From the IMG/VR virus record IMGVR_UViG_3300045303_000212, positions 1-45,759 of that record: a stretch of 45,759 nucleotides of DNA; one strand, 5' to 3'. The stretch comes from a virus. The notes beneath the pieces were generated by a model. The model had not been told where the DNA came from, searched no databases, and was given only the letters and a program-made list of their open reading frames with translations. This document shows, in pieces, positions 1,661 through 42,499 of the stretch. A program made the translations under genes and the position numbers. Within the stretch, counting starts at the first letter, position 1, and each line of letters opens with the position of its first letter.

Positions 1661-1762
1661 GGCGACCCAAGCGTCTCACGTACAGCGGGACACTAGACTG
1701 AGCGACAGACCCCCGCACCTGCGGATACAGGCCGGGGGGATGGCCGACATGGAGGTGTCGAC

Positions 1763-2281
1763 GTGGACAAGAGTACGACGGCGGTCGATCGGTTCCTGGC
1801 GAAGATCCGGTACGACCCCGCCACGGGGTGCGTGCTGTGGACCGCGGGGCTGGACGGCGACGGCTACGGCTCGTTCAAGGTCACGGGACGGCAGGCGCGC
1901 CGGGCCCATATCTTCGCCTACGAGACGTGGGTTGGCCCAGTCCCGCCGGGTCGCCAACTTGATCATCGCTGCCACAACGAGGCCGCTGCGCGCGGCGAGT
2001 GTGCGGGGGGCCCGAACTGCGCGCATCGTCGCTGCGTCAACCCCGCACACCTGGAGGCGGTGACGCCACGGGAGAACAGTCACCGGTCCCCTTTCACAGT
2101 GCAGAGCATCCACGCAGCCAAGACGCACTGCCCGTACGGCCACCCCTACGACGAGGCGAACACCTACGTCTCGCCTGCGGGAGGCCGCAGTTGCCGAACC
2201 TGCAACCGGGCGAAGATGGAGCGCTGGCAGGCCGAACATCACGGGATGGCGCGCGCGGCAGCGTCAACCCCTAAACCCTGA
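1763..2281 (+). CDS. HNH homing endonuclease with C-terminal zinc-finger module
   Basis: 172 residues from GTG 1763, preceded by a strong ribosome site GGAGGT at 1751. The HNH core reads LDHRCHN, then CAHRRCVNPAHLEAVTPREN (catalytic His in LDH, Asn/His in CVNPAHL). The C-terminus holds a second Cys/His module, CPYGHPYDEANTY then CRTCNR, shared with the HNH genes at 14143 and 36207. It is transcribed against the surrounding late operon, and its last 43 bases overlap the 3' end of the opposing capsid-region gene. A CACTAGAC motif lies 70 bases upstream. Probably a selfish free-standing nuclease. Confidence 0.92.
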   Translation: MDKSTTAVDRFLAKIRYDPATGCVLWTAGLDGDGYGSFKVTGRQARRAHIFAYETWVGPVPPGRQLDHRCHNEAAARGECAGGPNCAHRRCVNPAHLEAVTPRENSHRSPFTVQSIHAAKTHCPYGHPYDEANTYVSPAGGRSCRTCNRAKMERWQAEHHGMARAAASTPKP

Positions 2282-2472
2282 GTGCCACTCAACTGATTCA
2301 GAACCCCCTGGAGGGCCTTCCATGAACCGACTGGATTGCCAGCTTTTAGATTGAGGGCACCTACGAGATCGTGGCCCGACACGCCGGCCCAGATATTGGC
2401 CGCGCCGCAGGCGTCCAGACCGACCGTGCCGGCCACCCGGTTCACCGAAAAGACGAGCGCTTCCTGGGCCAT
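2239..2472 (-). CDS. Small late-operon protein, possible head completion protein
   Basis: 77 residues from ATG 2472 with GAGGT three bases upstream. It lies between a 92-residue gene downstream of the capsid gene and the 115-residue gene, where head-completion proteins are common. Composition is Ala/Gly/Leu-rich with a single Cys; no motif is recognised. Its last 43 bases overlap the opposing HNH gene, so the C-terminus may have been rewritten by the HNH insertion. Confidence 0.6.
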   Translation of the reverse strand: MAQEALVFSVNRVAGTVGLDACGAANIWAGVSGHDLVGALNLKAGNPVGSWKALQGVLNQLSGTQGLGVDAAARAIP

Positions 2473-2486
2473 CAGACCTCAGCCTC

Positions 2487-2765
2487 TCAAATGTCGATGA
2501 GGGTGTAGCCGGCCGCGGTCAGCAGCACGGCCTGCACGTCGGTGACCGGCGTGTCGTGGCCGCCCTGGAAGAACGCGTCGCAGCCGCGGATGTCGTCCAC
2601 CGACACCTGCTGCTTCTCGACGACAACCCCTGACGTGATGAGCACGTTGGTGGCCTGCCCGTCGTGGTGGAAGTGCCGGTACAGGGCCTTCTCCGGGTCC
2701 TTGGCGTCGGCTGTGTGCCGGGCCCCTTCGGGCTGCCGGACGGGGGGTCGGAAGATCAGCGCCAT
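2487..2765 (-). CDS. Small virion-region protein downstream of capsid
   Basis: 92 residues from ATG 2765. Starts MALIFRPPVRQPEGARHTADAKD, then a mixed alpha/beta body ending GYTLIDI. It lies 70 bases after the major capsid gene and 14 before the next gene. Position suggests a decoration, head-closure or capsid-associated protein, but no family is recognised. Confidence 0.65.
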   Translation of the reverse strand: MALIFRPPVRQPEGARHTADAKDPEKALYRHFHHDGQATNVLITSGVVVEKQQVSVDDIRGCDAFFQGGHDTPVTDVQAVLLTAAGYTLIDI

Positions 2766-2835
2766 GACGCCTCCCAGACAGGTTCCGGTCCCGGCCCCCC
2801 ACGTCGCGGAGGAGGGCCGGGTGTCCGGAATGTGG

Positions 2836-3789: not shown

Positions 3790-3836
3790 GACGGGGCCCC
3801 TTCAGAGCCTCAGAGGGATGTGTGGTTGACCACGTC

Positions 3837-4325: not shown

Positions 4326-5037
4326 GGCTTCGCTCCGGGGTTCCGTGTGCACGCCGACGTGGAGGACGCCTGCGGCGGGGCCGACAATGGGTGCGGCTCG
4401 GACTTCCCTGGCCTAGGGGTCCGCCTCGCTGCGGGAAGGGGCCGGGCCCTGTGGGCTCACCGACCGCGCTGTCTCGCACGCCGAGTGTCGCACAAAGCCG
4501 TCCAACGTCTAGCGCGACACGGTCAAGACATACCTCTTGCCCACTCCCCAATGCCCTCCGATACCAGAACCGCTGTCGGCGCAGCACTTCGGGATCGTCG
4601 GCGCTTGGGCCGACGACCTCTCCGTATGACGCTGGGACTGATCAATCCCGCGCGAGCCGCGGGTTCGGCTCAGGCTCAACCCGGCCGCTCTGTTTGCCCG
4701 GGGCGACCGGGCTCGGACGGGCGGCTTTGAGGTCCGAGAATCGAACGGCAAAGCGGTCGTGCACTCAGCCCATCCCTGGCGTAACCGAGCACCCCAAACC
4801 TAGTCCTGACCCGTCCGGGTGTACAGCGTTCAGCGCGATCCCGGTGGCCGGGTGCACGCCGCTATGGTGGAGGCGCGGGTCGGCTTCTGAACGGGCGGCC
4901 GTCCGCTTGCCACCATCCCTGGCAAAGACGGACCCCGCCATGACGGACCGCGGCTGGAACCGCGAGCCGGGAGGCGGGGTTTGTCGCGTCCAGTCTGAGA
5001 GCATGAACGCTAGACACCCCCAGCCGAGGAGACACCC
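4326..5037. promoter_or_regulatory. 712-base gene-poor region between late genes
   Basis: The longest gap inside the late region. It holds a CGTCTAG motif at 4506-4512 (minus reading CGCTAGACG), CGCTAGAC at 5008-5015 just before the plus-strand gene at 5038, and two minus-strand CCAGGGATG elements ending near 4770 and 4909. One of these fits the initiation signal of other leading genes and precedes a 40-codon minus ORF. No tRNA fold was found. It may hold a late promoter reading left and a separate promoter reading right. Confidence 0.5.
4642..4764 (-). CDS. Candidate 40-residue peptide
   Basis: A short minus-strand frame from GTG 4764 to a TGA at 4642, starting MHDRFAVRFSDLKAARPSP and basic overall. 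The only argument for it is that its start stands 9 bases after AGGG in an AGGGATGG context, as at the starts near 29600, 31235 and 38867. No homology is recognised and it may be chance. Confidence 0.3.
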   Translation of the reverse strand: MHDRFAVRFSDLKAARPSPVAPGKQSGRVEPEPNPRLARD

Positions 5038-14098: not shown

Positions 14099-14111
14099 CT
14101 AGACGCTAGAC
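14099..14111 (+). promoter_or_regulatory. Tandem CTAGAC operator-like motif
   Basis: CTAGACGCTAGAC: two CTAGAC units joined by one G, in the gap between the divergent 13623-14081 (minus) and HNH (plus) genes. One of the clearest copies of the dispersed motif described in the findings. Confidence 0.55.
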
Positions 14112-14697: not shown

Positions 14698-16575
14698 TCA
14701 CGCCGTCGCCTTCATGCCGGTCCCGCGGAGGCTTTGGAGTAGTTGATCTAGGTTGCCCAGGCTGGTGGACGGCGGCGGCACCGCGACCCCGGCCTCCGCA
14801 CCCGCCCCGGGCACGGCGATGCCGGGCTGGGCCTCCGGTGAGTTGGGGTCGACCCCCGCCGCCGGGTCCACAGCACCAGCGGCGGGGTCCGGTGGCATCG
14901 CGGCCTGCCGTTGCTGCGCCTCCTCCTGCACCTTCAGGACGGCGTCGACCAGGTCCAGGTCGTCCCGGCGGACCAGCTGCATGATCCGGGCCAGATCGCT
15001 GGGGGGGAGTTGTCCTGCGGCGGCCTGGGTCTGCAGGCCTTGCAGCAGGGCGGTCTCCAGGCCTTCGGTGGTGACCAGGTCGCCCTCGAGGTCGGCGTCG
15101 GCGATCCACGGGTGCACCCGGCGGGCGGTCTCCTTCGATATCTGCTGGGTGCCCAGCAGCTGGCCGAGGCCGATGGTGAGGTTCTGGATGTCGGTGCCGG
15201 CCATCGGGTAGGAGACGGTGGTGTAGTCGGAGTCGAAGTCCTTGGACGGGGTGTAGTCCACACGCCCCGAGGACCCTTTCCACCTGACGTGGAAGGACTG
15301 CGGTCGGTCGCCGAAGTAGGCCTTGGCGATCTTGGTGGCCCGCCGGTTCTCCTCCTCGAGACTTGCCGCGAGCATCTGCTGGGCCTCGGCGACCTTCAGG
15401 TCCACGGTGGCGGACATGATCGAGTCGCCCCTGCGCCCGGTCCGGATGTTGGTGGAGGACTGGCCTCCGGTGTCCGGGGATATGCCGCCCTCCACCCGCT
15501 GTGCGTTCTCCAGCCGGTCGATGGTCTGGGTGGTCATGAAGCCGGGGTTGGGGCTCTCGGAGCGGATGTCGCCGCCCTCGACGATGTTGACCTGCCCGGT
15601 GTAGCCGGGGTGGGGACCGCTGATGAACTTGGCGGTCTCGTTCATCCGACTCACCAGGTAGGTGTCCGGGAACACCCCTCGCTGCACGGCGTGCACGTTC
15701 AGGGCCATCAGCTTGGCCTGCATCTGGTACATGCCCAGGATGCCGTCGAACTGCCCTGCCACCCGGTCCAGGGTGATCCGCGGCGGGGTCACCGCCAGGC
15801 ACAGACCCGTTCTGTTCGGCACCTGCTCCAGCAGCATGTGCGGGGCCATCTGGTAGTTGGTCACCCACCACCCGTTGTTCAGCGCGAGGTAGCAGGTCTG
15901 CTCGTGGTCGTCGTACTCGAGGACGGTGAACAGCTCGTCGTCCTTGGCCTCACTGGGACACAGGGCCGCGGCCTGGGTCGGCCACACCCGGCGGAGGTAG
16001 CCGAGGGAGCGCTTGACAGCGTGCACGCAGTCGTCCGGGGTCAGCCCGTCCGGGTCGGCCATCGGCGCGGGGAAGGAGGTGAGCGGGTTGCGGGTCTCCC
16101 ACTTGGGGATGCCCCGGTCGAAGTCCGGCCGCAGGACGACGGGGCTCATTCCGTAGCCGACGAACAGCCTCGCTCGCCGGTACAGCTTGAGTTCGACCCG
16201 GTTGGCCTCCCACCAGCCCAGGGTGGCCTTGCGCCGGGTCTCGGCCTTCCGCCGGGAGCCGACCTGCCGTGGGTCGGTGGGCGGGCAGGTCACGTCCGGG
16301 GTGGTGCTGGCGATCCGCCGGCCGTAGTCGTCGAGGCCCTGGGCGAACAGGTTGGCGACCGCGGGGACCTCGTTCTTGTCCAGCTCGGGCAGCGGGACGA
16401 CGATCTCCCCCCGGTAGTGCGCCCGGGCCTTCTCCATCTGGGCGATCACCGGGTGCTGCGCCTGCTGCCGGTCACCATATATGCGCGCTATGTCGCAGCA
16501 GTCGCGTTCATAGGCGGTGCTGACCATCCCGTGCTTCATGCCCGGGGCCGGCATCTCCATCTCGCCGTACGCCAC
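14698..16575 (-). CDS. Portal protein
   Basis: 625 residues from GTG 16575, chosen because AGGAGG lies 5 bases upstream; an ATG at 16596 in frame lacks such a site. Portal-like features include the early AHYRGEIVVPLPELDK and VPAVANLFAQGLDDYGRRIAS region, the central stem-like part, a TKIAKAYFG segment, and an Ala/Gln-rich helical C-terminus (VLKVQEEAQQRQAAMPPDP). It lies downstream of TerL with an SGNH hydrolase and a nuclease between. It would form the dodecameric DNA channel at one vertex. Confidence 0.88.
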   Translation of the reverse strand: MAYGEMEMPAPGMKHGMVSTAYERDCCDIARIYGDRQQAQHPVIAQMEKARAHYRGEIVVPLPELDKNEVPAVANLFAQGLDDYGRRIASTTPDVTCPPTDPRQVGSRRKAETRRKATLGWWEANRVELKLYRRARLFVGYGMSPVVLRPDFDRGIPKWETRNPLTSFPAPMADPDGLTPDDCVHAVKRSLGYLRRVWPTQAAALCPSEAKDDELFTVLEYDDHEQTCYLALNNGWWVTNYQMAPHMLLEQVPNRTGLCLAVTPPRITLDRVAGQFDGILGMYQMQAKLMALNVHAVQRGVFPDTYLVSRMNETAKFISGPHPGYTGQVNIVEGGDIRSESPNPGFMTTQTIDRLENAQRVEGGISPDTGGQSSTNIRTGRRGDSIMSATVDLKVAEAQQMLAASLEEENRRATKIAKAYFGDRPQSFHVRWKGSSGRVDYTPSKDFDSDYTTVSYPMAGTDIQNLTIGLGQLLGTQQISKETARRVHPWIADADLEGDLVTTEGLETALLQGLQTQAAAGQLPPSDLARIMQLVRRDDLDLVDAVLKVQEEAQQRQAAMPPDPAAGAVDPAAGVDPNSPEAQPGIAVPGAGAEAGVAVPPPSTSLGNLDQLLQSLRGTGMKATA

Positions 16576-16617: not shown

Positions 16618-16630
16618 CTAGACGCTAGGC
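16618..16630 (+). promoter_or_regulatory. Tandem CTAGAC-type motif upstream of portal
   Basis: CTAGACGCTAGGC, a near copy of the tandem at 14099, in the gap between the SGNH hydrolase stop (16681) and the portal start. On the minus strand it reads against the direction of transcription. Confidence 0.5.
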
Positions 16631-16680
16631 GCGTCCGGGGCGGGTCGGGACAGGCGGATAGCCGGCACCTACCGGTCGGG

Positions 16681-18341: not shown

Positions 18342-18893
18342 CTAGACGTAAGGCGCGGCCCGCGCCCGCTCGATGTAGCGGGCCAGGGACCGCACGATGT
18401 GCGGATCTTCGCGGAGCATCCCCGCCGCGGCGTTGCAGCCGGTACAGAGCAGACCGCGGACCAAACCCGTCTCGTGGCAGTGGTCGACGCAGAGGAACTT
18501 GTTTCGACCTTCGGGCGTGGGCGGGTTGCCGCACACCGCACAGACCCCGCCCTGGTCCGCGACCATCCCCGCGTAGTCGGCCAGCGTGAGCCCGTGGCTT
18601 CTCAGCATCTTGATCCGGACGTAGTCGGGGTTCTTCGCCTTCCACGCGACGACGTACTTCTCGCGCCAACCCACGCATTCCTCGCAGCGGCACCCGTGGA
18701 ACCGGAAGCCCTGCGGGGTGCCATGCTGGAACTGCCCGGTCTCCGTCTTGGTCAGCCTCACCGGGAGGTCGGTCGCGCCGTAGAGCTTCCATCGCTGGTA
18801 GTGCTGGGTGCACATCGCGCGGGCCCGCGACAGATGCTCGCAGCCCTCGACAACGCAGGGCGGCCTGGGCTTGGGTTTCGGTCCGTACGGCAT
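18342..18893 (-). CDS. Endonuclease VII-type HNH nuclease
   Basis: 183 residues from ATG 18893. The C-terminal half matches the T4 endonuclease VII family: VCAVCG (Cys118, Cys121), VDHCHETGLVRGLLCTGCN (Asp137, His138, His140, Cys150, Cys153) then a helical end. The N-terminal half has two more Cys clusters (VVEGCEH ... CTQHYQRW, and CRCEECVGWREKY), a second zinc site. It may resolve branched DNA before packaging, which fits its place beside TerL, or act as a homing nuclease. Its TAG stop is formed by a CTAGACG motif. Confidence 0.9.
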   Translation of the reverse strand: MPYGPKPKPRPPCVVEGCEHLSRARAMCTQHYQRWKLYGATDLPVRLTKTETGQFQHGTPQGFRFHGCRCEECVGWREKYVVAWKAKNPDYVRIKMLRSHGLTLADYAGMVADQGGVCAVCGNPPTPEGRNKFLCVDHCHETGLVRGLLCTGCNAAAGMLREDPHIVRSLARYIERARAAPYV

Positions 18894-25146: not shown

Positions 25147-25147
25147 C

Positions 25148-25187
25148 CGTCTAGCCTATAGACAGGAACGGCTGGACGCTAGACGCC
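25148..25187. promoter_or_regulatory. Double CTAGACG operator-like site upstream of HNH-RHH gene
   Basis: Two copies in opposite orientation (25148-25154 and 25179-25185), with an inverted repeat GTCTA-5-TAGAC at 25149-25163. It lies in the 62-base gap between the methylase-containing chain and the HNH-RHH gene, just upstream of the latter's ATG. Likely control point for leftward transcription. Confidence 0.5.
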
Positions 25188-25208
25188 GCGCCCGACAGGC
25201 AAGGGCGC

Positions 25209-25406
25209 TTAGGACGAGGAGGGCTTCTCGGTGAGGCACGGGTCGCCAGCGGGAGCACCGCAGGTGGTGCAAAGCACGTGGTCGCAGCAACGCCCGCGGC
25301 AACGCCTGCTCGGCGGGGCGTCGGCGGGCGCATCGCCCATGTGGTGGGCCCAGGTGTCGGGCCGCGGCATCGGGCCCTTCTGCTCCTGGCGCTCTTGCTC
25401 GTTCAC
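25209..25406 (-). CDS. 65-residue Cys-rich zinc-finger protein
   Basis: From GTG 25406 with AAGGAGG 7 bases upstream. The C-terminal half carries CRGRCC, CTTCGAPAGDPC: a likely zinc ribbon. Last gene of the coupled chain starting at 28398. Function unknown. Confidence 0.7.
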   Translation of the reverse strand: MNEQERQEQKGPMPRPDTWAHHMGDAPADAPPSRRCRGRCCDHVLCTTCGAPAGDPCLTEKPSSS

Positions 25407-25471
25407 TGATCGTCCTCCTTGAGCAGGTCCCACCAGCGTCGCCACCACGGCTTGCGGTGCCGGCCGCTCAT
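25403..25471 (-). CDS. 22-residue Trp/Arg-rich peptide
   Basis: A very short frame (ATG 25471 to TGA 25403) locked between neighbours by ATGA at its start and GTGA at its end, so translation is likely by coupling. Sequence centre is RKPWWRRWWDLLKE: four Trp and several Arg, an amphipathic helix reminiscent of membrane-active peptides. It also carries the ribosome site of the next gene, so it could merely act as a coupling leader. Confidence 0.55.
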   Translation of the reverse strand: MSGRHRKPWWRRWWDLLKEDDQ

Positions 25472-28063: not shown

Positions 28064-28398
28064 GGCCTGCACCTCTCGCACGGTCGCAGGAGGGCCAGGG
28101 TGTCGTACTCGTCCTGTGAGCCGGTGCCCCGCCACCACTCCGGCCGGGACGCCAGGCCGCAATCGGTCTCCCGGGTGGTGCCGTCGAACAGGTTGACCGT
28201 GGTCAGGTGCCGCACCTTCCCGGAGGGGGTGTAGCGCCAGCCCGCGAGGGCGAGGTCGTCGCCGCCGACCGTCGGGCAGTCCTCGTCCTCGCGGTGCCAC
28301 CAGGTCAGGCCCTCGTAGGAGCCGGGGTGGCCCGGGCAGCCGATCGCCTTGCCCTCGCCTACGGTGCAGCCCGGGAAGTCGTCCGCCTCGCCGCTCAT
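28060..28398 (-). CDS. 112-residue protein with CERC terminus
   Basis: From ATG 28398 (ATGA overlap with the RHH gene). Beta-rich, with GCTVGEGKAIGCPGHPG-like Cys/His near the start and LRPCERCRP at the end, which may share one zinc. The middle (WRYTPSGKVRHLTTVNLFDG) resembles short proteins common in phage early regions. Function unknown. Confidence 0.65.
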   Translation of the reverse strand: MSGEADDFPGCTVGEGKAIGCPGHPGSYEGLTWWHREDEDCPTVGGDDLALAGWRYTPSGKVRHLTTVNLFDGTTRETDCGLASRPEWWRGTGSQDEYDTLALLRPCERCRP

Positions 28399-28772
28399 CG
28401 CAGCCACCCCATGTCGTGCCCGCAGGCGCAGGACCAGCGGGTGACCCGCCGGTTGCCCTCGACCTTGTCGCCGGTCTTGACCTTCGGCTGGTGCTTGTGC
28501 GGGACCGAAGGTGGCAGTGCCCCGCGGTCAACGCGCGGCTCGAGGACCGGTTCGGGCATGGGCAAGGGCGCTTTGACGGGCGGCGGCAACTCACGCGCGT
28601 CACTAGACGCGGCAGCCTTTCTCACCGACCGCGGGCTGAGCGCATCGACCCCGGCCGAGACGATCCGCCCCAGCACGTCGGAGTCCTTCTCGCCCACCTT
28701 GCGCAGCCGGCCGATCGTCTCCGGCTGCAGTCGCACGTAGAACGGTTTGCGCCCGGTCGACGGTCTCGGCAT
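28395..28772 (-). CDS. Ribbon-helix-helix-like regulator with Cys/His C-terminus
   Basis: 125 residues from ATG 28772, first gene of the leftward chain. Residues 8-45 (KPFYVRLQPETIGRLRKVGE ... LGRIVSAGVDAL) look like an RHH strand-helix-helix. A Pro-rich linker follows, then a C-terminal WSCACGHDMGW. A 14-base perfect palindrome lies 25 bases upstream, a good candidate for autoregulation. One CTAGACG copy falls inside this gene (28603). Confidence 0.7.
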   Translation of the reverse strand: MPRPSTGRKPFYVRLQPETIGRLRKVGEKDSDVLGRIVSAGVDALSPRSVRKAAASSDARELPPPVKAPLPMPEPVLEPRVDRGALPPSVPHKHQPKVKTGDKVEGNRRVTRWSCACGHDMGWLR

Positions 28773-28796
28773 AGCGCTGACACTACGACCGCCAGA

Positions 28797-28810
28797 CGTT
28801 GACGTCAACG
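28797..28810. promoter_or_regulatory. 14-base perfect palindrome upstream of RHH gene
   Basis: CGTTGACGTCAACG, centred 31 bases upstream of the RHH start. Its symmetry suits a dimeric RHH repressor. Further motif copies follow (TAGACG at 28830, CTAGACG at 28844). Confidence 0.55.
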
Positions 28811-29521
28811 CTACGAGGCGGGTTGTCGTAGACGAAAACCTGCCTAGACGCCGAACGCGCGGAAATGCCCGCGAAAACCGGCCTTCCAGGCCCCGATCCG
28901 CGGAAAAACCGGCCACGAGCGCAAGTCCCCGGCGTATTTGAGCGCTCAACCGCCGAACAGTTGGACAACTCCCGAACAACCCGCCGTCAAGGCCCGATCC
29001 GCGGCCAGAACCGCCCCCCGAGGCCAGCTACGGCCCAACCTCCCCAGCGCCGTGACCTGCGGTTATGACACAAACCCCAGCCAGGGGTACTTCCCTCCCC
29101 TCCCCTGCCCGGGCCGGGCACACCCCGGGTCAGCTCTCGCGCGCACGTCTGCCTGCAATCGTGTGCAGCCCTCGCGTGACCGGGGCGGCTGACTGTCCGG
29201 GTTCAGCGTGGCAGGGGGTGGGGGAGGGGGTGCGATGCACCCTCCTCCCCTGCTGTGCTGTGCGTGGTGTGTGGGTTGGTAGGTGCGAGCGTGGTGCGTG
29301 CACGTGAGTGGGGATGGTGAAGGGCAACAGCGCGATGAGGAGGAGTGCCTCGCACGGTCAGGTGAGCCAGCTCAAGGTGTGCCGTGGCGAAGGGCAGCGA
29401 CTGCCGTGCCGTGCCCCGGGATGGGTGAGCTGGGGCCTGGCCGAGGCTGCCGGCCTACGCCGATCGGGTGACCTAGGTCCCGACCCTGAGCGTGTCTGTC
29501 AAGGGGGTGTTGTCAAACCCC

Positions 29522-29550
29522 TTGTGCGGTGTGCTCCCACCGTCTAGTGT
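29522..29550 (+). promoter_or_regulatory. Putative rightward promoter overlapped by operator motif
   Basis: TTGTGC (29522-29527), a 17-base spacer and TAGTGT (29545-29550) resemble a vegetative -35/-10 pair. CGTCTAG (29541-29547, the CACTAGACG motif on the minus strand) overlaps the -10, as expected for repression. Confidence 0.4.
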
Positions 29551-29599
29551 TCGGGTTGTCGCCAAACGGGGCGGCAACCAGACACCAGGGATGGCAGTC

Positions 29600-30239: not shown

Positions 30240-30517
30240 GCACCGACCGGGACGCGCTCGCCCGGGTGCTGTACGACGCCTACGGTGCCGCCTGGGCGAC
30301 GGGCCGACTGACGTGGCCCGCCGTCGCCGACACGGTGATCGCCGCGGGCTGGAACAGGCACGACGCCCCGCTCGGTGCCGAGCGGGGATGCACAGAGTCG
30401 GGATGCGCACGTGTCCTAGCGCTCTGCGACGAAGCCGAAGCCGAAGGAAGCCTGCTCAACCCCCGATGGGTCCGCGCCGCCCTCGCCGACCAACCAGACG
30501 AGGATGGTGCGTCGTGA
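30236..30517 (+). CDS. TDRDxLA-family protein with AGWNRHD motif
   Basis: 93 residues from GTG 30236 (GTGA overlap). Starts MSTDRDALARVLYDAY, related to the genes at 27651 and 31235. Residues near 60 contain CTESGCARV. A strong hairpin (30366-30387, nine pairs) lies inside the frame. Function unknown. Confidence 0.7.
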   Translation: MSTDRDALARVLYDAYGAAWATGRLTWPAVADTVIAAGWNRHDAPLGAERGCTESGCARVLALCDEAEAEGSLLNPRWVRAALADQPDEDGAS

Positions 30518-30930
30518 GCGCCCGGGAGCTGCTGCTCGAGGAGTACCGGGTGGAGCGCCAGCGCGGGGAGCTGGTCCGGGACCTGGCCACCATGGGCTAC
30601 CCCACCGAACGCGCCATGCAGAAGGCCGAGGGATCAGCCCAGCCCGTCACGCTGAAGGACTGGATGCGCCAGACGCAGCAGCCGGCCCAACCCGACGACC
30701 TCGAGCGCGCCCGGGTGACCGCGATGCTGTGGGGCCAGGCGCAGGACGTGCACGAGGCCATGGCCCAGGCCCAGCGCGACTACCAGAGCGCCACCCTCGC
30801 GAGGGACGAGACGTTCACCCAGCTGGTGGAGTCCGGGGAGACGTTCCAGGCGGTGGCCACGATGATGCGGGTCACCCGGCAGGCCGTGCACGCCTCGGTC
30901 AAACGCCACCGGGAGCGGTGTGCGGCCTAG
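30514..30930 (+). CDS. Coiled-coil protein with C-terminal helix-turn-helix
   Basis: 138 residues from GTG 30514 (GTGA overlap). Long charged helices fill residues 1-100; the C-terminus (ETFQAVATMMRVTRQAVHAS) is a sigma-like HTH, similar in layout to the gene at 42500. Probably a DNA-binding regulator. Its stop codon lies in a GCCTAGAC motif copy. Confidence 0.65.
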   Translation: MSARELLLEEYRVERQRGELVRDLATMGYPTERAMQKAEGSAQPVTLKDWMRQTQQPAQPDDLERARVTAMLWGQAQDVHEAMAQAQRDYQSATLARDETFTQLVESGETFQAVATMMRVTRQAVHASVKRHRERCAA

Positions 30931-30938
30931 ACTTTCCA

Positions 30939-31783: not shown

Positions 31784-31800
31784 GGCACACAGGGTGGACC

Positions 31801-31878
31801 AACCTACAGGCGCGGCGGTAGGTTGTTGATCTGCGAGAAGGGCGTTCGGTGCCCCGCTGACTCCGGTCGGCGGGGCAC
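31801..31878 (+). terminator. Double hairpin ending the rightward operon
   Basis: First stem AACCTAC/GTAGGTT (31801-31807, 31818-31824); second, stronger stem GTGCCCCGC/GCGGGGCAC (31849-31857, 31870-31878), followed by TTTCGCGTTT. A plausible intrinsic terminator in a gap of about 220 bases that also has GATCAC...GTGATC (31895-31916) and CGTCTAG at 31971. Confidence 0.6.
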
Positions 31879-32003
31879 TTTCGCGTTTAGCCATGATCAC
31901 CAGTGGGAGCGTGATCCGGCCTAAGTAGCCCGGACGAGGGGGGTTCTCCCGTCCTGGGGCCCCTGTGGCGCGTCTAGCGGCCACTGTGACGCTGGCCGAC
32001 CCC

Positions 32004-32372
32004 CTAGGCGGCGCGGCGGCGGTTCGCGGCCTTCCGGTGCCGCTGGTACGCGCGCTCCAGCCGGCCGGTCGCCGGGTCCCGCTCGCCACGCGCCCACGCG
32101 GTGTGGCCGGCCCGCAGCTCGGCCGGCAGGTACACCGGCAGCCGGGGGGCCGGGATCTTCACCGGATGGCCGTTCACCCACCAGAAGCCCCCGGCGATGC
32201 CCTCGAACACCTTCTCGGACCTCGCCCAGGCCGCGCACGAGCCGCGGACCGGGCACGCCTCGCACAGCTGCACCGCCTGCCTCGCCACCCGGGGGTCGTC
32301 GGTGCCCATCCGCGGGTCCCCGACGCAGGCGGCCCGGGTGCGCCACTCGTCAAGGGCGCTTTGACGGGTCAC
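32004..32372 (-). CDS. WhiB-like iron-sulfur transcription factor
   Basis: 122 residues from GTG 32372 (GTGA overlap). Four cluster-binding Cys: Cys16 in AACVG, Cys37 and Cys40 in LCEAC, Cys46 in RGSC. The turn is GIAGGFWW (58-65), with Ala where host proteins usually have the Trp of GVWGG that contacts sigma A. A basic C-terminus (RAYQRHRKAANRRRAA) should bind DNA. Phage WhiB proteins can interfere with host WhiB control. Last gene of the leftward early operon. Confidence 0.9.
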   Translation of the reverse strand: MTRQSALDEWRTRAACVGDPRMGTDDPRVARQAVQLCEACPVRGSCAAWARSEKVFEGIAGGFWWVNGHPVKIPAPRLPVYLPAELRAGHTAWARGERDPATGRLERAYQRHRKAANRRRAA

Positions 32373-32748: not shown

Positions 32749-33185
32749 CACGCCTTCCCGGTCTTGCCCTGGGACTGCAGCCGGCGGTGCATGTCCCACC
32801 GGTCGTGGGACTCCCGGACGGCCGCGGCAGCTTCCGGCTTGCACCGCTCGCACGGGGTGACCCGCCCGTCGCCGTCGACGTAGACGAACCCGCGGTCGCA
32901 CCGCGCGTGGTCGCACGGGCAGTTCGGGCGGCGGCAGTGGTTGTCGTTGGGCCCGGTGGTCGCCACGTCCCCAGCCGCCCTTGAGCGGATCTCCGCGCGG
33001 ATGTCGGCGGGGGCGATGTACCGGGCGGACCGGCGGACCAGGGCCACGATCGCCGCGCGGGCGTCCGTCGGGTCCAGGTCGGTCATGGCGTCCCGCCACA
33101 TCTGCGGCATGCCCTCGACGATCTCCATGCCGGGGCAGCCGGCCCGGGCGGCCTCGAGCAGGTCGATCGCGTCGTCGAGATTCAC
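32745..33185 (-). CDS. Possible helicase loader with zinc-finger tail
   Basis: 146 residues from GTG 33185 (GTGA overlap with the initiator). Residues 1-75 (LDDAIDLLEAARAGCPG, MWRDAMTDLDPTDARAAIVA, RYIAPADIRAEIRSR) follow a pattern I associate with small phage helicase loaders such as SPP1 G39P. Residues 85-120 hold a Cys/His cluster (CRRPNCPCDHARCDRGF then CERCKP). Location right after the replication initiator supports a replication role. No helicase is encoded here, so a host DnaB would be the partner. Confidence 0.5.
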   Translation of the reverse strand: MNLDDAIDLLEAARAGCPGMEIVEGMPQMWRDAMTDLDPTDARAAIVALVRRSARYIAPADIRAEIRSRAAGDVATTGPNDNHCRRPNCPCDHARCDRGFVYVDGDGRVTPCERCKPEAAAAVRESHDRWDMHRRLQSQGKTGKAW

Positions 33186-33931
33186 TGGCCCCTCGCCTCC
33201 CGCAGCACCCGGTCCCCGGCCTGTTTGCGGGCCGACCCGTTCAGCACCGGCTGGCCCTCGATCTCCACGCGCAGCGTCTCCACGGTCAGCGAGCGGCCCT
33301 CCTTTGCGAGCCGGCGCAGCGCGGCGGTGATCTCCTCGTCGCACTTGCCGGCCCGGACCGCCTGGGTCACCACGCCCAGCACCGCCGGGAACCGGGACAT
33401 CGGGACCAGATCGGTGTAGACCGCCGCAAGTCGCTGCCGGTGCTGGCCCTCGGTCTCTCCGTCACCAGCGGTTTTCGCGCCTTCCACTTCCACTTCCACT
33501 TCCACTTCCACTTCCGGCGCGCGCGCGCCCGCCCGCGCGAGGGTGAGCCCTCCATTCGGGCTCACTGAGCCCTCACTGAGCCCTCCGTGAGTGGTCCGTG
33601 GACACTCAGGCAGAGTTGACGGGGTGGGCCGGTTCACCCGCTGGTGGGCGGCGAACCCGGGGACGTGCAGGTAGTGCCGGCCGTCGTGCTCGTACCGGCA
33701 GACCGCGCCGATCGCCTCCAGCTGCGCCAGGTGGTCCCCCAGGTGCGCGACCGTGGTGAAGTCGTCCAGCGGGTACAGCGCGGCCTTCAGCAGCCGCCGG
33801 TCCGCCCGGCCCCGGCCCAGGTCGTCCACGTAGGTCCACAGGCCGGCGAACGTCCAGCGCACCGCCGGGGGCACCGTGGACAGGGTCTCGGAGGCGAACG
33901 CGTCCGGCTTGATGCTGCGGATGCGGGCCAT
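33182..33931 (-). CDS. Replication initiator (helix-turn-helix)
   Basis: 249 residues from ATG 33931, where the sequence begins MARIRSIKPDAFASETLSTV, the usual opening of phage replisome organisers. Residues 1-115 form the winged DNA-binding part (RWTFAGLWTYVDDLGRGRAD, LDDFTTVAHLGDHLAQLEAIG, YLHVPGFAAHQRVNRP). A linker of alternating Val-Glu encoded by a hexamer repeat precedes a C-terminal helical domain. As in lambda O, the origin may lie in the gene itself, near the repeats at 33481-33600. Confidence 0.8.
   Translation of the reverse strand: MARIRSIKPDAFASETLSTVPPAVRWTFAGLWTYVDDLGRGRADRRLLKAALYPLDDFTTVAHLGDHLAQLEAIGAVCRYEHDGRHYLHVPGFAAHQRVNRPTPSTLPECPRTTHGGLSEGSVSPNGGLTLARAGARAPEVEVEVEVEVEGAKTAGDGETEGQHRQRLAAVYTDLVPMSRFPAVLGVVTQAVRAGKCDEEITAALRRLAKEGRSLTVETLRVEIEGQPVLNGSARKQAGDRVLREARGQ
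33481..33515. repeat. Hexamer tandem repeat in the initiator gene
   Basis: CTTCCA repeated five times plus CTTCC (35 bases), encoding Val-Glu dipeptides. Whole units can be gained or lost without frameshift. Next to it (about 33541-33597) are three CCCTC/GAGGG-type repeats with CTCACTGAG. This is the most repeat-dense stretch of the window. Confidence 0.85.
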
Positions 33932-34126: not shown

Positions 34127-34480
34127 CTAGACGTTGGACAGGGGCTCCGGGCGGACCTGCTCCAGGCGATAATCGGGGGTCAGAAAGACCGCTCCGAGGG
34201 CGAAGTGCTGTACCGGTACATCGGCCGGGTCGGCGTATCGGGACACGATCCAGCCGCCCGGCTCCCCCACGTCGTGCCGCCGGGAGTGGACCAGCGCGTG
34301 GCACAGCCCGCAGAGCAGCACGAGCAGCACCGCGTCGTCCAGGCGCTTTGTCCCGCCGCTGCCCTTCAGAACCCGATGGTGGACGTGGGGGTCGTAGCCC
34401 GGGTCGCGTCCGCAGCGGGCACAAACGCGGTCCCGCTCGAGCACCTGCCGGCGAACGTCCGGGGGGATCACGTCCGGCAC
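34127..34480 (-). CDS. HNH endonuclease (McrA-like)
   Basis: 117 residues from GTG 34480, overlapping the upstream HTH gene by 13 bases. Classic single-domain HNH: VCARCGRDPGYDPHVHHRVL (Cys pair, HH), KRLDDAVLLVLLCGLCHALVHSRR (second Cys pair and Asn/His-type His). The C-terminal 45 residues are extra. Its TAG stop is formed by a CTAGACG motif. Could be homing or serve recombination; it lies between recombination and replication genes. Confidence 0.9.
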   Translation of the reverse strand: MPDVIPPDVRRQVLERDRVCARCGRDPGYDPHVHHRVLKGSGGTKRLDDAVLLVLLCGLCHALVHSRRHDVGEPGGWIVSRYADPADVPVQHFALGAVFLTPDYRLEQVRPEPLSNV

Positions 34481-35284: not shown

Positions 35285-35292
35285 CGTCCCTC

Positions 35293-36210
35293 CTAGAACT
35301 TGTCGGTGAGGCCGCGCTCCGGCACCAAAGACGCCAGCGCACCCGACCGGCCGGGCTGACGTCTCGCCACCCGCGCCCCGGCCCACAGGGCCCGCCGGGC
35401 GGTGCCCATGGCATCGAGTACGAGGGAAGCCGCGTGTGTCTTCGCGGCCTCGGCTTCCTTGAACATCCTCAGCGCCTCGACGTAGCCGATGGCGACCTCG
35501 GGCTCCAAGGTGACCGCCACGTCCTCTATGCCGGGGGACAGCTGCCGGATGGCCTCATAGGTATGTTTCGAGTCATCGATGTCCGGCGGTTCGTCGTCTT
35601 GCAGGGAGGCTAGGAACTCGGCCGCCGAGTCGGCGAGCATTTCCTGCATCGCCGGGTTGGCGTGCACCACGTAGCGGCGGTAGTCGGTGCCCGCGACCAG
35701 CGCCGACACGTACCAGGTGTCCAACCCAAAGACCGCCAGCGCCCACTGAACCTGACAAAAATATGCGGGCGGGATCTCGTCGGTGCCCGGGGTGCCGAAC
35801 CCGTCACCGAAGCGATCACATTTCGCCTCGAAACCTGCGACGAGCACACCGTCGGCGTCGAAGCAGAGGGCATCGGGTGACGCGACCATGAAGTCCCGGT
35901 CGATGTGCTGGTAGACCGCGCCGGGCTCGTAGGTCACCTTGAACTCGGGGTGCTCCCGGGCGAAGAACTGGACGATCACCGGCTCGATCAGGGTCCCCCA
36001 GCTCATCTCCGGTCGCTCCGGTTGGTGGTCGATGCGGCCCCGGCGTTCCATCCACAGCGAGAACGCGGACGCCCACGGCGACACACCGACGATGGCCGCG
36101 ATATCCGATCCGCCGACGCGGTTCTCCCTCGCCGTATGCCACTCCGCGGAGCCGGCCGTCCACCTTCCCAGGTAGCGCGCGGGCCCGGGAGACACGTCGG
36201 TCGTCGTCAT
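35293..36210 (-). CDS. YqaJ-type (lambda exonuclease fold) recombination exonuclease
   Basis: 305 residues from ATG 36210 (ATGA overlap with the HNH gene; GAAGGTG upstream). Motifs: WHTARENRVGGSDIAAIVG, SAFSLWMERRG, MSWGTLIEPVI, ASPDALCFDADG (catalytic Asp) and GFEAKC (Glu-x-Lys), then YFCQVQWALAVFG. It would resect double-stranded ends 5' to 3' and hand single strands to the Rad52-like protein at 36925, a standard phage recombination pair. Confidence 0.9.
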   Translation of the reverse strand: MTTTDVSPGPARYLGRWTAGSAEWHTARENRVGGSDIAAIVGVSPWASAFSLWMERRGRIDHQPERPEMSWGTLIEPVIVQFFAREHPEFKVTYEPGAVYQHIDRDFMVASPDALCFDADGVLVAGFEAKCDRFGDGFGTPGTDEIPPAYFCQVQWALAVFGLDTWYVSALVAGTDYRRYVVHANPAMQEMLADSAAEFLASLQDDEPPDIDDSKHTYEAIRQLSPGIEDVAVTLEPEVAIGYVEALRMFKEAEAAKTHAASLVLDAMGTARRALWAGARVARRQPGRSGALASLVPERGLTDKF

Positions 36211-36701
36211 ACCAGCACCTTCTTTCGGTCTGCGCGTGGCACCCAGCGCGCACGGCGGCAGGTGTTGCACCAGCGCCAGCCAGTCACCGGATGCCGGTAT
36301 GTGTTCGCCTCGTCGTAGAGATGGCCGTGGACGCAGTGCGTTTTCTCGGCCCCGGAATTCGTGCCGTGGCGGATCTTGTCCTGCATGTTTTCCGTGTGCG
36401 TGCCGTAGGCCAGGTTGCTCAGGCTGTTGTTGCGGGGGTTCCCGTCGAGGTGCCGTGTCTCCATGCCTTCCGGTCGTGGGCCGACGAAAGCCAGCAGCAC
36501 GAGGTGATGCGCCTTGCGACGGACGTTGACCCCGTTCAGGCAGAGCGAGAACGAGTCATAGAGGTAGTTGTTGAGCTGTGGGGCGAGGATGCGCGGAACC
36601 GAGTTGCCCCGCCACGGATACCAGGACCGGACCCGACCCCGGTCGCTGACGTCGTACATGCCGTCGTACCCGGGCACCGGCAGCCACCGCTCGGGGGTCA
36701 T
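36207..36701 (-). CDS. NUMOD4-HNH homing endonuclease with zinc-finger module
   Basis: 164 residues from ATG 36701. NUMOD4: ERWLPVPGYDGMYDVSDRGR; HNH_3: HHLVLLAFVGPRPEGMETRH, LDGNPRNNSLSNLAYG; C-terminal zinc module CVHGHLYDEANTY then CNTCRRARW as in two other HNH genes. It is fitted between neighbours with ATGA overlaps on both sides, so it is co-translated with the recombination operon rather than standing alone, which is uncommon for homing nucleases. Confidence 0.92.
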   Translation of the reverse strand: MTPERWLPVPGYDGMYDVSDRGRVRSWYPWRGNSVPRILAPQLNNYLYDSFSLCLNGVNVRRKAHHLVLLAFVGPRPEGMETRHLDGNPRNNSLSNLAYGTHTENMQDKIRHGTNSGAEKTHCVHGHLYDEANTYRHPVTGWRWCNTCRRARWVPRADRKKVLV

Positions 36702-37740: not shown

Positions 37741-37910
37741 CAGGAGCCCTTCCCATCATCAGCGTTCGTGGTTTGTGCCAGCGGCTCGGCGCGCTCGGCC
37801 AGCTCCCGCTCGATCTCGCACGCGGGGCAGGCTGGCCCGCCGCACTCGTAGTGGGCGACCGGTCCGACCTTCGGCCAGTAGCCGGGCACGTGCCGGTAGT
37901 AGGTGGTCAC
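37740..37910 (-). CDS. 56-residue zinc-ribbon protein
   Basis: From GTG 37910 (GTGA overlap). HYECGGPACPACEIERELAE gives three Cys and a His; C-terminus polar. Function unknown. Confidence 0.65.
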   Translation of the reverse strand: MTTYYRHVPGYWPKVGPVAHYECGGPACPACEIERELAERAEPLAQTTNADDGKGS

Positions 37911-38140
37911 GACGACGCCTCCGGGTAGCACTCGTAGTCGGCGTCCATGCCGTCCCAGGAGTGGTCGACCGGGCCGTCGTAGTTGTCGTCGGCCTCGGGC
38001 GGTTCGAGCACACCGGTGCCGGAGCATGTCTCGCAGGGCGTCTGGTGGGCCTCGAGGCTGCCCTGGATGTACCGGTCGAACACGACCCCGCGTCCGCCGC
38101 AGTCCGGGCAGTCGACCTCGGTCCAACTCGCGCGCTTCAC
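37907..38140 (-). CDS. DnaJ-like zinc-finger protein
   Basis: 77 residues from GTG 38140 (GTGA overlap). Two CxxCxGxG units, CPDCGGRG and CETCSGTG, as in the central domain of DnaJ, followed by a strongly acidic tail. Small stand-alone proteins of this type are frequent in phage early regions and may bind unfolded protein or nucleic acid. Confidence 0.75.
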   Translation of the reverse strand: MKRASWTEVDCPDCGGRGVVFDRYIQGSLEAHQTPCETCSGTGVLEPPEADDNYDGPVDHSWDGMDADYECYPEASS

Positions 38141-38913: not shown

Positions 38914-39213
38914 CTAAGCAGATCGTGGGACAGAACCCCGGATGGTGATGGCGAACAGGGAGCCCGGTGCCGCCCCCAAAGCGTCCTCGACGGCGGCGGC
39001 CAGCGCCGGCTTGCAGCGGGGCATGGTGCCCGACACGAGGTGCCCGATGGCGGCCTTCGAGTAGGGCTTTCCGGTGGCCGGGTTGCGGGTTTTCGCTGCC
39101 ACGTCGGCCAAGGACATGCCCGTGTACGCGAGGTAGCGGGGCAGGATGTCCGGGGAGATCGGGGCCAGCCGGGCCTGCCTCGGGCGTGGTCTGCGGGTTG
39201 CCGTGGCGCTCAT
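38914..39213 (-). CDS. Cro-like helix-turn-helix protein
   Basis: 99 residues from ATG 39213 (AGGGGG upstream). HTH: MSLADVAAKTRNPATGKPYS with recognition helix SKAAIGHLVSG. Divergent from the repressor gene with the operator-rich gap between, so it occupies the Cro position and opens the leftward early operon. The terminal part overlaps a CACTAAGC variant of the motif. Binding specificity is unknown. Confidence 0.75.
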   Translation of the reverse strand: MSATATRRPRPRQARLAPISPDILPRYLAYTGMSLADVAAKTRNPATGKPYSKAAIGHLVSGTMPRCKPALAAAVEDALGAAPGSLFAITIRGSVPRSA

Positions 39214-39460
39214 GATGTCCCCCTGCCGCTCACCCGTCCGGGTGTTTCGCGTACAGGGGAAACCTACCAGCCGTTAGACGGTCGGGGAAGGGGCGGCTAG
39301 CGATTCACCCGTTCGGACGCCGGGAAACGCCGTCGACGGCTAGTGATCGGCGGGGGGCTGGGGATTTCGTCTAGGGTTTGGCTGCGTATCCTCCAGTGGA
39401 CGGGATACCCCCACTAGACGGATGATCGGCAGCCACGGGACAACGCGAGGGGTCGAGCGA
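39214..39460. promoter_or_regulatory. Immunity control region with four operator-like motifs
   Basis: Divergent gap with motif copies at 39274 (TTAGACG), 39334-39345 (GACGGCTAGTGA), 39368-39374 (CGTCTAG) and 39414-39420 (CTAGACG). TATCCT at 39388 is a possible -10 for the rightward repressor gene. This is the expected site for competition between repressor and Cro-like protein. Confidence 0.6.
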
Positions 39461-39814
39461 GTGGACGCGCTGCAGCAGCTGGTGCTGGACCGGATGGCCG
39501 AGCTGGACCTGTCCTTCCGGGTCGCGGCGGAGCGCTCCCGGATCGGGCACGGCAAGAACTCCCGGCTGCTGGTGTCCCCGGCCACCCTGAACAACATCGC
39601 CCTGGGCAAGCGAACGTTCCGGGCGAAGGACGAGACGCTGGACGGCATCGCGATGGCCCTGGACGTCGCGCCGTCGGTGGTCCGGGAGGCGGCGGACCGG
39701 CCGGTGGACAAGCCGGTCAAGTTCGACCTGGGCCCGAAGGGGGACCGGCTCAACGCCCGGCAAAGACGCGCGGTGATCGCCATGGTCAACGCGATGCTGG
39801 GTGACGACGACTGA
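39461..39814 (+). CDS. Putative immunity repressor (HTH)
   Basis: 117 residues from GTG 39461, with GAGGGG 8 bases upstream; the ATG at 39422 lacks a ribosome site and lies in an operator-like motif. HTH about 17-60 (LDLSFRVAAERSRIGHG, SPATLNNIALGKRTF, then DETLDGIAMALDV), the XRE-like layout. The rest is a helical C-terminus (RLNARQRRAVIAMVNAMLG). Location opposite the Cro-like gene and near the integrase supports repression of lytic genes. The CRCTAGACG sites are its best candidate targets. Confidence 0.7.
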   Translation: MDALQQLVLDRMAELDLSFRVAAERSRIGHGKNSRLLVSPATLNNIALGKRTFRAKDETLDGIAMALDVAPSVVREAADRPVDKPVKFDLGPKGDRLNARQRRAVIAMVNAMLGDDD

Positions 39815-39873
39815 TCCTGAGAGGTTGCCCAGGGCCACCGTCGGTGACCGACACGCCGCGCCTCGACCGGCCG

Positions 39874-40222: not shown

Positions 40223-40237
40223 GGGTTTCTAGCCCTT
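40221..40237. terminator. Short bidirectional hairpin between convergent genes
   Basis: AAGGG/CCCTT with loop TTTCTAG spans the stops of the 40040 (plus) and 40229 (minus) genes. Weak stem, but convergent position suits a shared terminator. Confidence 0.4.
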
Positions 40238-40471: not shown

Positions 40472-40532
40472 GGTGTCTCCTGTCCGGTTGAACGCTGGCC
40501 GAACATAGCACACCGCTGCTACGTTGGACGGC

Positions 40533-40844
40533 ATGAACCTGCCCGAGATCCCCGCCCAGGCCCTCGAGATGGGTGCGCTGCCGATCGGCCTGGACAACTG
40601 GCCGCGCAGCGACGGGTGCCCGTTCTGCACACGCAACGTCGCCTCGCTGCCCTGCCCGGACCACCTCGCCAAGGCGGTGATCGACGCCGCCTGGCCGCTG
40701 CTGTACGCCGCCGCGCTGCGGCACCTCGCGGACACTGTCGAGTCGGACGACGACAACTACTACGACAGCATGGCGGGGTTCAACTCCATCACCCCCTACG
40801 GGCTCCGCGAGCTAGCCGACGAGGCGCTAAAGCCGGTCACCTAG
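40533..40844 (+). CDS. ALRHLA-family protein with CPFC knuckle
   Basis: 103 residues from ATG 40533. DGCPFCTRNVASLPCPDHLA (possible zinc site), then AAWPLLYAAALRHLADTVES and LRELADEAL, the same helix pair as in the genes at 20873 and 26570. Its last 18 bases overlap the integrase 3' end, and its TAG lies in a CACCTAGACG motif. Function unknown. Confidence 0.65.
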   Translation: MNLPEIPAQALEMGALPIGLDNWPRSDGCPFCTRNVASLPCPDHLAKAVIDAAWPLLYAAALRHLADTVESDDDNYYDSMAGFNSITPYGLRELADEALKPVT

Positions 40845-41717
40845 ACGCATCCGGCGGAACGCGGCAGCCGCCCGCTCGTCCGCCGCCGACGCCCCGTACC
40901 TCGAGAGCATGGACTCCGAGGACCAGCCGGCGAGGCGCATCAGGTCCCGCTCCTGCCCGCCGTCGGCCAGCCAGCGGTGCGCGAAGGTGTGCCGCAGCTG
41001 GTGGGCGTGCAGGCCGTCCAGCCCGGCCTTGACGGCCCGGCGGCGGATCATCGCGGAGACCCCGACCACCTTCAGCGGGCCCTTCCCGCCCAGCCACAGC
41101 GCCGGGGAGTCGACGAGCCGGTGCTTGGCCCGCATCCGCTTGTAGCGGTCCAGCGCCAGCCCGGTGTTGGACCCGAACGGCACCACCCGGGGCTTGCGAC
41201 CCTTGCCCAGGACTTCCATCTCGTCGTGTTTGAGGTCCACGTCGGTCACCTGAAGGTTGGTCAGCTCGGCGATCCGCAAGCCGCAGTCGAACAGCACCCG
41301 GAGCATCGCCAGGTCCCGGCGCTCCCGGAACGTGGGCCCCGCGCAGGTGGCGAACAGGGCGGCTAGGTCGTCGTCGGGCAGCACCGGGACCCGGGTGGGT
41401 CTCACCACGGGCTGCTTCATCCCGGCCATCGGGTCGGCGCTGATGATCCGCTCCCCTTCCAGCCAGCGGCAGAACAGGTGCAGGCCGGCGTGCCGGATCA
41501 GGTGGGTGGCCGGGGCCCGGGTGGCGGCGAGTCCAGCAAGCCAGTCCTGGATCAGCGGGCGGGTCAGGTTCTCGACGTCGTCGCCGTGCTCGCGGGCCTC
41601 GAGCCAGGCGACGTACTGGGCGACCGCCCGCCGGTAGATCACGACGGTGCCGGGGGCCTTGTCGGCGGCGCGCAGCGACCGCTCCCACGAATACGCGAGG
41701 TCGCTCAGTGACTCCAT
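40827..41717 (-). CDS. int: Tyrosine integrase
   Basis: 296 residues from ATG 41717. Full catalytic set: Arg148 (CGLRIAEL), Lys172 (GKGRKP), His239 and Arg242 (HQLRH), Trp265 (GW, in place of the common His) and Tyr274 (SRYG). An N-terminal core-binding SAM-like domain is present (YSWERSLRAADKAPGTVVIY), but no clear arm-binding extension. It would integrate the phage at an attB I cannot identify. It overlaps the upstream GIY-YIG gene by 13 bases, so the two are probably co-transcribed. Confidence 0.93.
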   Translation of the reverse strand: MESLSDLAYSWERSLRAADKAPGTVVIYRRAVAQYVAWLEAREHGDDVENLTRPLIQDWLAGLAATRAPATHLIRHAGLHLFCRWLEGERIISADPMAGMKQPVVRPTRVPVLPDDDLAALFATCAGPTFRERRDLAMLRVLFDCGLRIAELTNLQVTDVDLKHDEMEVLGKGRKPRVVPFGSNTGLALDRYKRMRAKHRLVDSPALWLGGKGPLKVVGVSAMIRRRAVKAGLDGLHAHQLRHTFAHRWLADGGQERDLMRLAGWSSESMLSRYGASAADERAAAAFRRMRLGDRL

Positions 41718-42217
41718 GACGCCACCGACCCGTCCGACCGCGACGCCGGTCCGCCCTCGCGGAACAGCCACTCGTGGAACGGCTGACGTCGGGCCCCCAT
41801 GTCGATGGCCCGCTGGTGCTCCTGTGCCTCGGTGAGGAAGAACGGGTCGGGCAGCGGGACCCACTGGTGCCGCGGCCAGGAGTAGGTGACGTTGTAGAGC
41901 GGGGTCAGGTCACGGATCAGCCGCTCCTCGACCGCGGCGGCTGTCGCCCGGTCCTTGTAGGCGTCCCACTCGACCCGCCCCCAGCGGTGCAGCGTCCACG
42001 AGGACCGGCCGCGGGTGTGCCCCGCAAGCCGGGAGATCGGGTCGCTGGTGAGCCCGACGTACAGCACCTCATCGCAGCGGCAGTAAACACGGTAGACGAA
42101 CTGCCGGTTGAGCTGCTGGTCGGGGTTCTCGATGACCCCGGAGGCGATCGGTTTGGGCAGCGCACGGCGAGCCAAGTTATCCACATCCCTGGACGATCTT
42201 GGAAATGTTTCCGTCAC
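41705..42217 (-). CDS. GIY-YIG nuclease
   Basis: 170 residues from GTG 42217; another GTG at 42184 would remove eleven residues. The GIY-YIG domain spans about 40-110: FVYRVYCRCDEVLYVGLTSD (variant of GIY/YIG), RLAGHTRGRSSW, VEERLIRDLTPLYN (catalytic Glu and Asn). The last 50 residues are an extra domain. Encoded upstream of, and overlapping, the integrase. It could be homing or act as a structure-specific nuclease. A TTATCCACA DnaA-box-like sequence lies near its start codon. Confidence 0.85.
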   Translation of the reverse strand: MTETFPRSSRDVDNLARRALPKPIASGVIENPDQQLNRQFVYRVYCRCDEVLYVGLTSDPISRLAGHTRGRSSWTLHRWGRVEWDAYKDRATAAAVEERLIRDLTPLYNVTYSWPRHQWVPLPDPFFLTEAQEHQRAIDMGARRQPFHEWLFREGGPASRSDGSVASWSH

Positions 42218-42499
42218 AACGAGCAGTGTGCCGGGCCACTGTCTAGCGGCGTAGTGGATACTTGCAGGTCACAGCCGTACAGGCAACCGCCGAACGGTGG
42301 ACAATGTAACGGAGAAGTAGGGGTTCTCGCTGCGTCTACTGTGTGCTAAGACGCTAGACCAGCGTGACGGTAGACGTGCAGCCCGAGCAGTTCTTCGTGC
42401 GTTTCTGTCCACAAGTGGATCACCGGCCGTGCTCCCGGGGCTCCGCCAGGCGGGGTGGCGAATAGACTGTCTACCCCCACCTACTATAACGTTCAGCGC
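42218..42499. promoter_or_regulatory. Divergent control region, possible attP
   Basis: Motif copies at 42241-42246, 42336, 42354-42359, 42371 and 42463-42473 (TAGACTGTCTA palindrome). It also has repeated GTGGAYA elements (42254, 42297, 42406-42412 inverted, 42415) and a DnaA-box-like TTATCCACA just inside the left gene. Such short repeats beside an integrase can be arm-type sites. TATAAC at 42485-42490 is a good -10 for the rightward gene. Confidence 0.5.

Follow-up and report, generated by a model that had tools for sequence, protein, structure and literature searches.

Stoperators have been described in cluster A mycobacteriophages, cluster CA Rhodococcus phages and MabJ prophages as 14-30 dispersed asymmetric sites of 13-14 bp, with L5, D29, TipsytheTRex, Rasputin and prophiT49-3 as named examples (PMC9283540, PMC13313380, PMC9934374). 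A stoperator system with dispersed intergenic sites has also been reported for Streptomyces phage R4 / phiJoe (PMC10276819), and the repressor of the cluster G phage BPs binds five regions across its genome (PMC4557955). Here we analysed the viral record IMGVR_UViG_3300045303_000212 over positions 1-45,759 (45,759 nt, hereafter the window), in which the short word CTAGAC, mostly followed by G, recurs between genes. There is very little doubt that this word forms a real, non-random, intergenic site network. The best reading, which is partly supported, is a dispersed and partly oriented network of repressor sites; the roughly 20 CTAGAC(G) copies probably serve the phage immunity repressor, for which the protein encoded at 39461 is the candidate, as operators and stoperator-like sites.

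The original prediction had listed 14 copies of CTAGACG, and every coordinate was exact. In dinucleotide-preserving shuffles the same word occurred 2.73 times on average with a maximum of 9, and 0 of 100 shuffles reached 14, so that the enrichment predicted against such shuffles was confirmed. The chance expectation of about five copies given at that time was too high; hence, the true excess exceeds the one first claimed. The reversed pattern occurred nine times, which is a weaker control because it contains no CTAG. CTAGAC was found 20 times in total and TCTAGA not once in the genome, thus the word is truly asymmetric. Genes were called by codon usage, giving about 6.7 kb of intergenic and stop-codon DNA. 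As a generic gene caller under-called this GC (guanine plus cytosine)-rich genome, the intergenic statistics were based on the first, codon-usage gene set, and those of other GC-rich records may be affected by equal under-calling. CTAGAC was the most over-represented 6-mer in intergenic DNA (18 versus 1.6 expected, log10 P -12.7), and CGCTAGAC was the most over-represented 8-mer (9 versus 0.17 expected, log10 P -12.5), about 50-fold above the intergenic dinucleotide model. Placement between genes or at stop codons, as originally proposed, was observed for 19 of the 20 CTAGAC copies, compared with 15% of all positions (P about 5e-15).

Such an excess might also arise as a by-product if CTAG and TAG were avoided in coding DNA and the leftovers gathered in gaps and stop codons. 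CTAG overall was indeed concentrated in gaps (35 of 41), and several copies use a TAG stop. Because CTAG and TAG are scarce in coding DNA, a separate test was limited to intergenic CTAG, where AC followed in 19 of 70 oriented occurrences versus 5.1 expected (P 3.6e-7). This result largely refutes avoidance as the cause, and the strong enrichment of CGCTAGAC, which was not seen in other phages, speaks against it as well; we regard it as very improbable.

The motif is best written as (A/C)CG-CTAGAC-G, with CGCTAGACG as the full word. Column information was concentrated in CTAGAC and the next G, and the bases just before it preferred CG or CA, in agreement with the original prediction. Only about 7-9 positions were informative, together with weak 7-bp tandem copies, rather than a consensus of 13-14 bp. 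When the flanks were scanned for a second, imperfect copy, the best two offsets were exactly -7 and +7, with mean matches of 3.0 and 2.9 of 7 versus 1.85 expected. The combined mean of 2.95 was never reached by random intergenic flanks, which peaked at 2.55 even with the best among 24 offsets chosen. Clear 7-bp tandems were found at 14099 (CTAGACG CTAGACA), 16618 (CTAGACG CTAGGCG), 25179 (CTGGACG CTAGACG) and 4506 (CTAGACG followed by the imperfect TTGGACG). Among the variants listed earlier, those at 28828, 39274, 39947 and 42370 were real, two of them having been placed one to two bases off, at 28830 and 42371.

Two further words were noted in the gaps. CGTACAG was enriched (7 versus 0.73 expected; at 1679, 14429, 16604, 39250 and 42276). 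Relative to the cores at 1693 and 16618 it is placed exactly 14 bp to the 5' side, and it occurs in both main control regions; it may be a promoter element or the site of a second regulator. Some sites have a CGTA element 14 bp to their 5' side, but 17 of 300 null sets reached its value and it did not remain significant once corrected. The second word, CAGGGATGG, occurred 5 times versus 0.09 expected, at 29586 (+), 30993 (+), 38874 (-), 4771 (-) and 4914 (-), and closely precedes the start codons at 29600, about 31008 and 38867, which recalls start-associated sequences.

The orientation of the sites depended on the kind of gap. In gaps between leftward co-directional genes, all six lone sites oppose transcription. 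These are CTAGAC(T) at 1693..1698 (+), upstream of the gene 1313-1660; the tandem at 14099..14111 (+), comprising the copies at 14099 and 14106, upstream of 13623-14027/14081; the tandem at 16618..16631 (+), 43 bp upstream of the portal-position gene 14698-16575; the copy at 18342..18348 (+), whose CTA is the stop of the HNH/endonuclease VII gene 18342-18815 and which lies upstream of 16681-18297; and the copy at 34127..34133 (+), followed by TTGGACA at +7, whose CTA is the stop of the HNH gene 34127-34480 and which lies upstream of the replication-initiator gene 33182-33931. The only exception in such gaps is the inverted, outward-facing pair at 25148..25154 (-) and 25179..25185 (+) in the gap 25117-25467. 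Therefore, the proposal that nearly all left-arm copies lie on the strand opposite to transcription held for the lone copies but not for 4506 and 25148, which face with transcription and belong to outward pairs.

Outward-facing pairs (CGTCTAG ... CTAGACG) were present in three of the four divergent regions. At 4.3-5.0 kb, the copy at 4506..4512 (-) in the gap 4326-5037 is partnered by CTAGAC(A) at 5010..5015 (+), 22 bp before the start of the rightward gene 5038. At 39.2-39.46 kb, the gap between the candidate repressor gene and a divergent Cro-like gene contains two exact sites, 39368..39374 (-) and 39414..39420 (+), and the variant TTAGACG at 39274..39280 (+). The right-hand site ends one base before ATG 39422 and 41 bp before GTG 39461, and between the two sites of the pair is an inverted GTATCC ... 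GGATAC. At 42.2-42.45 kb, CTAGAC(A) at 42241..42246 (-) and CTAGAC(C) at 42354..42359 (+) lie in the divergent gap 42185-42454. In the fourth region (28.8-29.6 kb, gap 28773-29599), each site opposes the gene beside it: that at 28844..28850 (+), with the variant GTAGACG at 28828, adjoins the leftward gene, and that at 29541..29547 (-) lies about 53 bp before the likely rightward start 29600. The remaining copies are at 28603..28609 (+), within the weakly supported gene 28395-28772; at 30927..30932 (+), a CTAGAC(T) that falls on the stop codon of 30514-30930; at 31971..31977 (-), in the convergent gap 31784-32003; and at 40841..40847 (+), where 40533-40844 (+) and the integrase gene (-) overlap at their ends. 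Stop codons are thus overlapped or abutted by the copies at 18342, 34127, 30927 and 40841.

Start codons follow many of the copies at a distance of 20-95 bp, and the motif could instead be an activator box near the promoter or belong to the phage promoters themselves. The distances from site to start vary, however, and copies are also found within a convergent gap, on a stop codon and at overlapping gene ends (31971, 30927 and 40841, respectively). In addition, the lone copies oppose transcription, and a search of 28.3-45.8 kb detected no sigma-70-like promoter. An activator or promoter role is hence improbable.

Even less credible is a role as target or border sites of the free-standing HNH/GIY-YIG endonucleases of the phage, of which there are four HNH-type genes and one further endonuclease gene (18342-18815, 24589-25116, 34127-34480, 36207-36701 and 41705-42217). 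Two of the HNH genes (18342-18815 and 34127-34480) terminate exactly within a CTAGACG copy, and copies lie upstream of the HNH gene at 24589 and the endonuclease gene at 41705. Yet most copies adjoin no endonuclease gene (1693, 4506, 5010, 14099, 28844, 29541, 39368 and 39414), and the HNH gene 36207-36701 has no copy.

The gene content indicates a temperate phage, as a tyrosine integrase (40827..41717, -), a repressor-family protein and a divergent Cro-like gene were identified. The candidate immunity repressor (39461..39814, +; 117 aa, or 130 aa from ATG 39422) matched phrog_12831 with an E value of 2.4e-9, the same family that was matched by the immunity repressor gp37 of the cluster P mycobacteriophage Tortellini (E 1.8e-20). 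Its gene adjoins that of the Cro-like repressor (38914..39213, -; 99 aa; phrog_14639 and a weak HTH_31 match), an arrangement as in BPs and cluster P phages, and the integrase gene is about 1 kb distant, separated by other genes. Meanwhile, none of the window proteins scanned (about 70 of 73 predicted) matched phrog_357 or phrog_3929, the repressor families of L5/R4-type phages; R4 gp29, the positive control, matched both.

A small helix-turn-helix (HTH) protein of 91 aa encoded at 42455..42730 (+) is a second candidate binder. The sites might be bound by this protein or by the Cro-like 38914 protein as a lytic-phase switch and not for prophage silencing. The gap before 42455 is rich in sites and variants, with two CTAGAC copies and GTAGACG variants at 42333 (-) and 42370 (+). 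The 42455 protein carries a C-terminal HTH with a weak match to KorA/TrfB (E 0.0035). KorA acts as a global repressor and has several operators. On the transcribed strand the window word reads GTCTAGC, which is close to GTTTAGC, half of the KorA operator GTTTAGCTAAAC of an IncP-1 plasmid (PMC2680271). That operator is palindromic, though, and the protein similarity is weak: the KorA match fell under the Pfam cut-off as one among many HTH matches, and no KorA entry appeared in a search of the PDB. Furthermore, the exact CTAGACG stands in the repressor/Cro gap, whereas the 42.2 kb region has CTAGACA and CTAGACC instead. We therefore consider the lytic switch unlikely; by sequence, both the 39461 and the 42455 protein stand as candidate binders.

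The intergenic over-representation statistic was applied likewise to D29, phiC31 and R4 as controls. The known D29 stoperator GGTGGCTGTCAAG was recovered (top 8-mer log10 P about -23), as were the known phiC31 inverted repeats CACGTGAGTAG (log10 P about -53; about 26-29 intergenic copies). In R4 our analysis found the dispersed motif CACTTGCACA, with a best 8-mer log10 P of -9.1, so the window signal lies between those of R4 and D29. Similar to the lone sites of the window, D29 sites and most R4 sites oppose transcription when recomputed here.

Like the cluster A, cluster CA and MabJ systems, the window has many dispersed asymmetric sites (20 CTAGAC, 14 of them CTAGACG), most of them between genes or at the ends of genes. 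The sites of those systems lie mostly in one orientation to transcription; in the window the orientation is uniform at the lone leftward-gap sites, while outward pairs occupy three divergent regions and 25.1-25.2 kb, and 30927 is an exception. Those systems differ in their longer sites (GGTGGCTGTCAAG in D29, TGTCTATTGTCAAG in Rasputin and cTTgACATACGaCC in MabJ, compared with a core of 7-9 bp with 7-bp tandems), and their repressor family was not found among the window proteins scanned. Thus the network would be stoperator-like in function without belonging to the cluster A type. The analogy with cluster A stoperators drawn in the original prediction stands for a dispersed, intergenic, partly oriented network; in detail it is weaker, given the 13-bp site length, the control regions, where sites face both ways, and the repressor family.

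R4 is likewise an actinophage with dispersed intergenic sites, its word ACACTTGCACA from this analysis mostly opposing transcription, but the site sequence is another one and R4 gp29 belongs to phrog_3929/357 and not to phrog_12831. The Streptomyces phage phiC31 also has dispersed intergenic repressor sites, the CIR CACGTGAGTAG; these are inverted repeats served by a large repressor gene (19274-21325), whereas the window sites are asymmetric and form no such repeats. With Tortellini the window shares the repressor family. BPs, by contrast, has 12-bp palindromic half sites (CGACATATGTCG) at few loci, and the window has about 20 sites with an asymmetric core and no palindromic half sites.

Taken as repressor sites, the copies would work as follows. 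The 39461 repressor would bind the roughly 20 CTAGAC(G) copies and thereby silence the whole phage genome during dormancy. The outward-facing pairs, at 39.2-39.46 kb between Cro and repressor and at 42.2-42.45, 4.3-5.0 and 25.1-25.2 kb, would be promoter operators at which binding may block initiation. At the heads and ends of leftward transcription units, copies that stand alone or in 7-bp tandem could act like stoperators, as extra silencing sites that stop residual or read-through transcription within the prophage. That the sites block elongation is, in our estimate, a tentative proposal. Equally tentative is an origin independent of cluster A and R4, in which a short asymmetric word, often in a 7-bp head-to-tail tandem, would be read by a small repressor of XRE type from the cluster P family, with paired sites serving as promoter operators and the lone, oriented ones blocking elongation.

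Several observations weigh against a repressor network. Only 12 of 25 gaps of at least 40 bp carry a site, so about half do not. The orientation in control regions is mixed, and 30927 runs with transcription. The promoters that operators should overlap were not seen in the sigma-70 scan mentioned above, the core is short with variable flanks, and the single-sequence AlphaFold model of the 39461 repressor (pLDDT 44) was too poor to use. Tortellini, whose repressor is of the same protein family, has no comparable intergenic motif, and the collections searched yielded no relative carrying the repressor or Cro of the window.

The searches behind the last point covered both DNA and protein. No DNA-level relatives were found in the phage collection. 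With the 39461 repressor as query, IMG/VR gave no relatives, annotated phages gave nothing below E 0.5, and a set of about 790 actinobacterial genomes yielded two weak matches at 29-31% identity; no relatives were found via the Cro-like 38914 or the 42455 protein. Capsid, portal and terminase searches gave distant relatives only, and the loci fetched from these showed no CTAGAC enrichment comparable to that of the window. Similarly, no enrichment was seen in the IMG/VR capsid-gene relatives, Dennebes, R4, Tortellini or three Streptomyces prophages, and none of these three prophages, which have the same structural module, carries the motif. Its lack of enrichment in capsid-sharing phages without this immunity module is expected if the motif follows the repressor, which is not proof. 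A scan of IMG/VR for the 14-mer motif tandem returned 56 loci, and those inspected were local arrays or scattered copies and no intergenic network. Among the first titles of text-search results, no phage paper was evidently on a CTAGACG site. If the 39461 protein does bind the sites, the repressors behind dispersed networks that silence whole prophages would include a family with no relation to the repressors of cluster A, R4 and phiC31, which would point to convergent evolution. The short word, the 7-bp register and the split into paired and lone sites make binding and reporter tests concrete.

The window has a GC content of 70%. Its ends, 1-180 and about 45580-45759, repeat each other over about 180 bp with one mismatch. 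Hence the genome is complete or near-complete and either circular or terminally redundant, with the tail gene 44219-45718 spanning the join. A RecE-like exonuclease, an annealing protein and a replication initiator are also encoded. The capsid and terminase are distant kin of those of Streptomyces phages (Beephvirinae), and the structural gene order is common to prophages in three Streptomyces genomes. One Streptomyces prophage with this structural module (G491, L126-L129) has a dispersed intergenic word of its own, GGTGATCA, found 7 times versus 0.28 expected. A dense array of direct and inverted CTAGACG adjoins the terminase genes of an unrelated viral contig (L177:3753-3856). Within the window, the replication-initiator gene 33182-33931 contains a short tandem GGAAGT repeat at 33475-33520 that encodes (EV)n. 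A WhiB-like regulator is encoded at 32004-32309 (phrog_12112, E 5e-7), and the small early protein at 37907-38140 resembles Q-like antitermination proteins (phrog_6060, E 1.3e-6).

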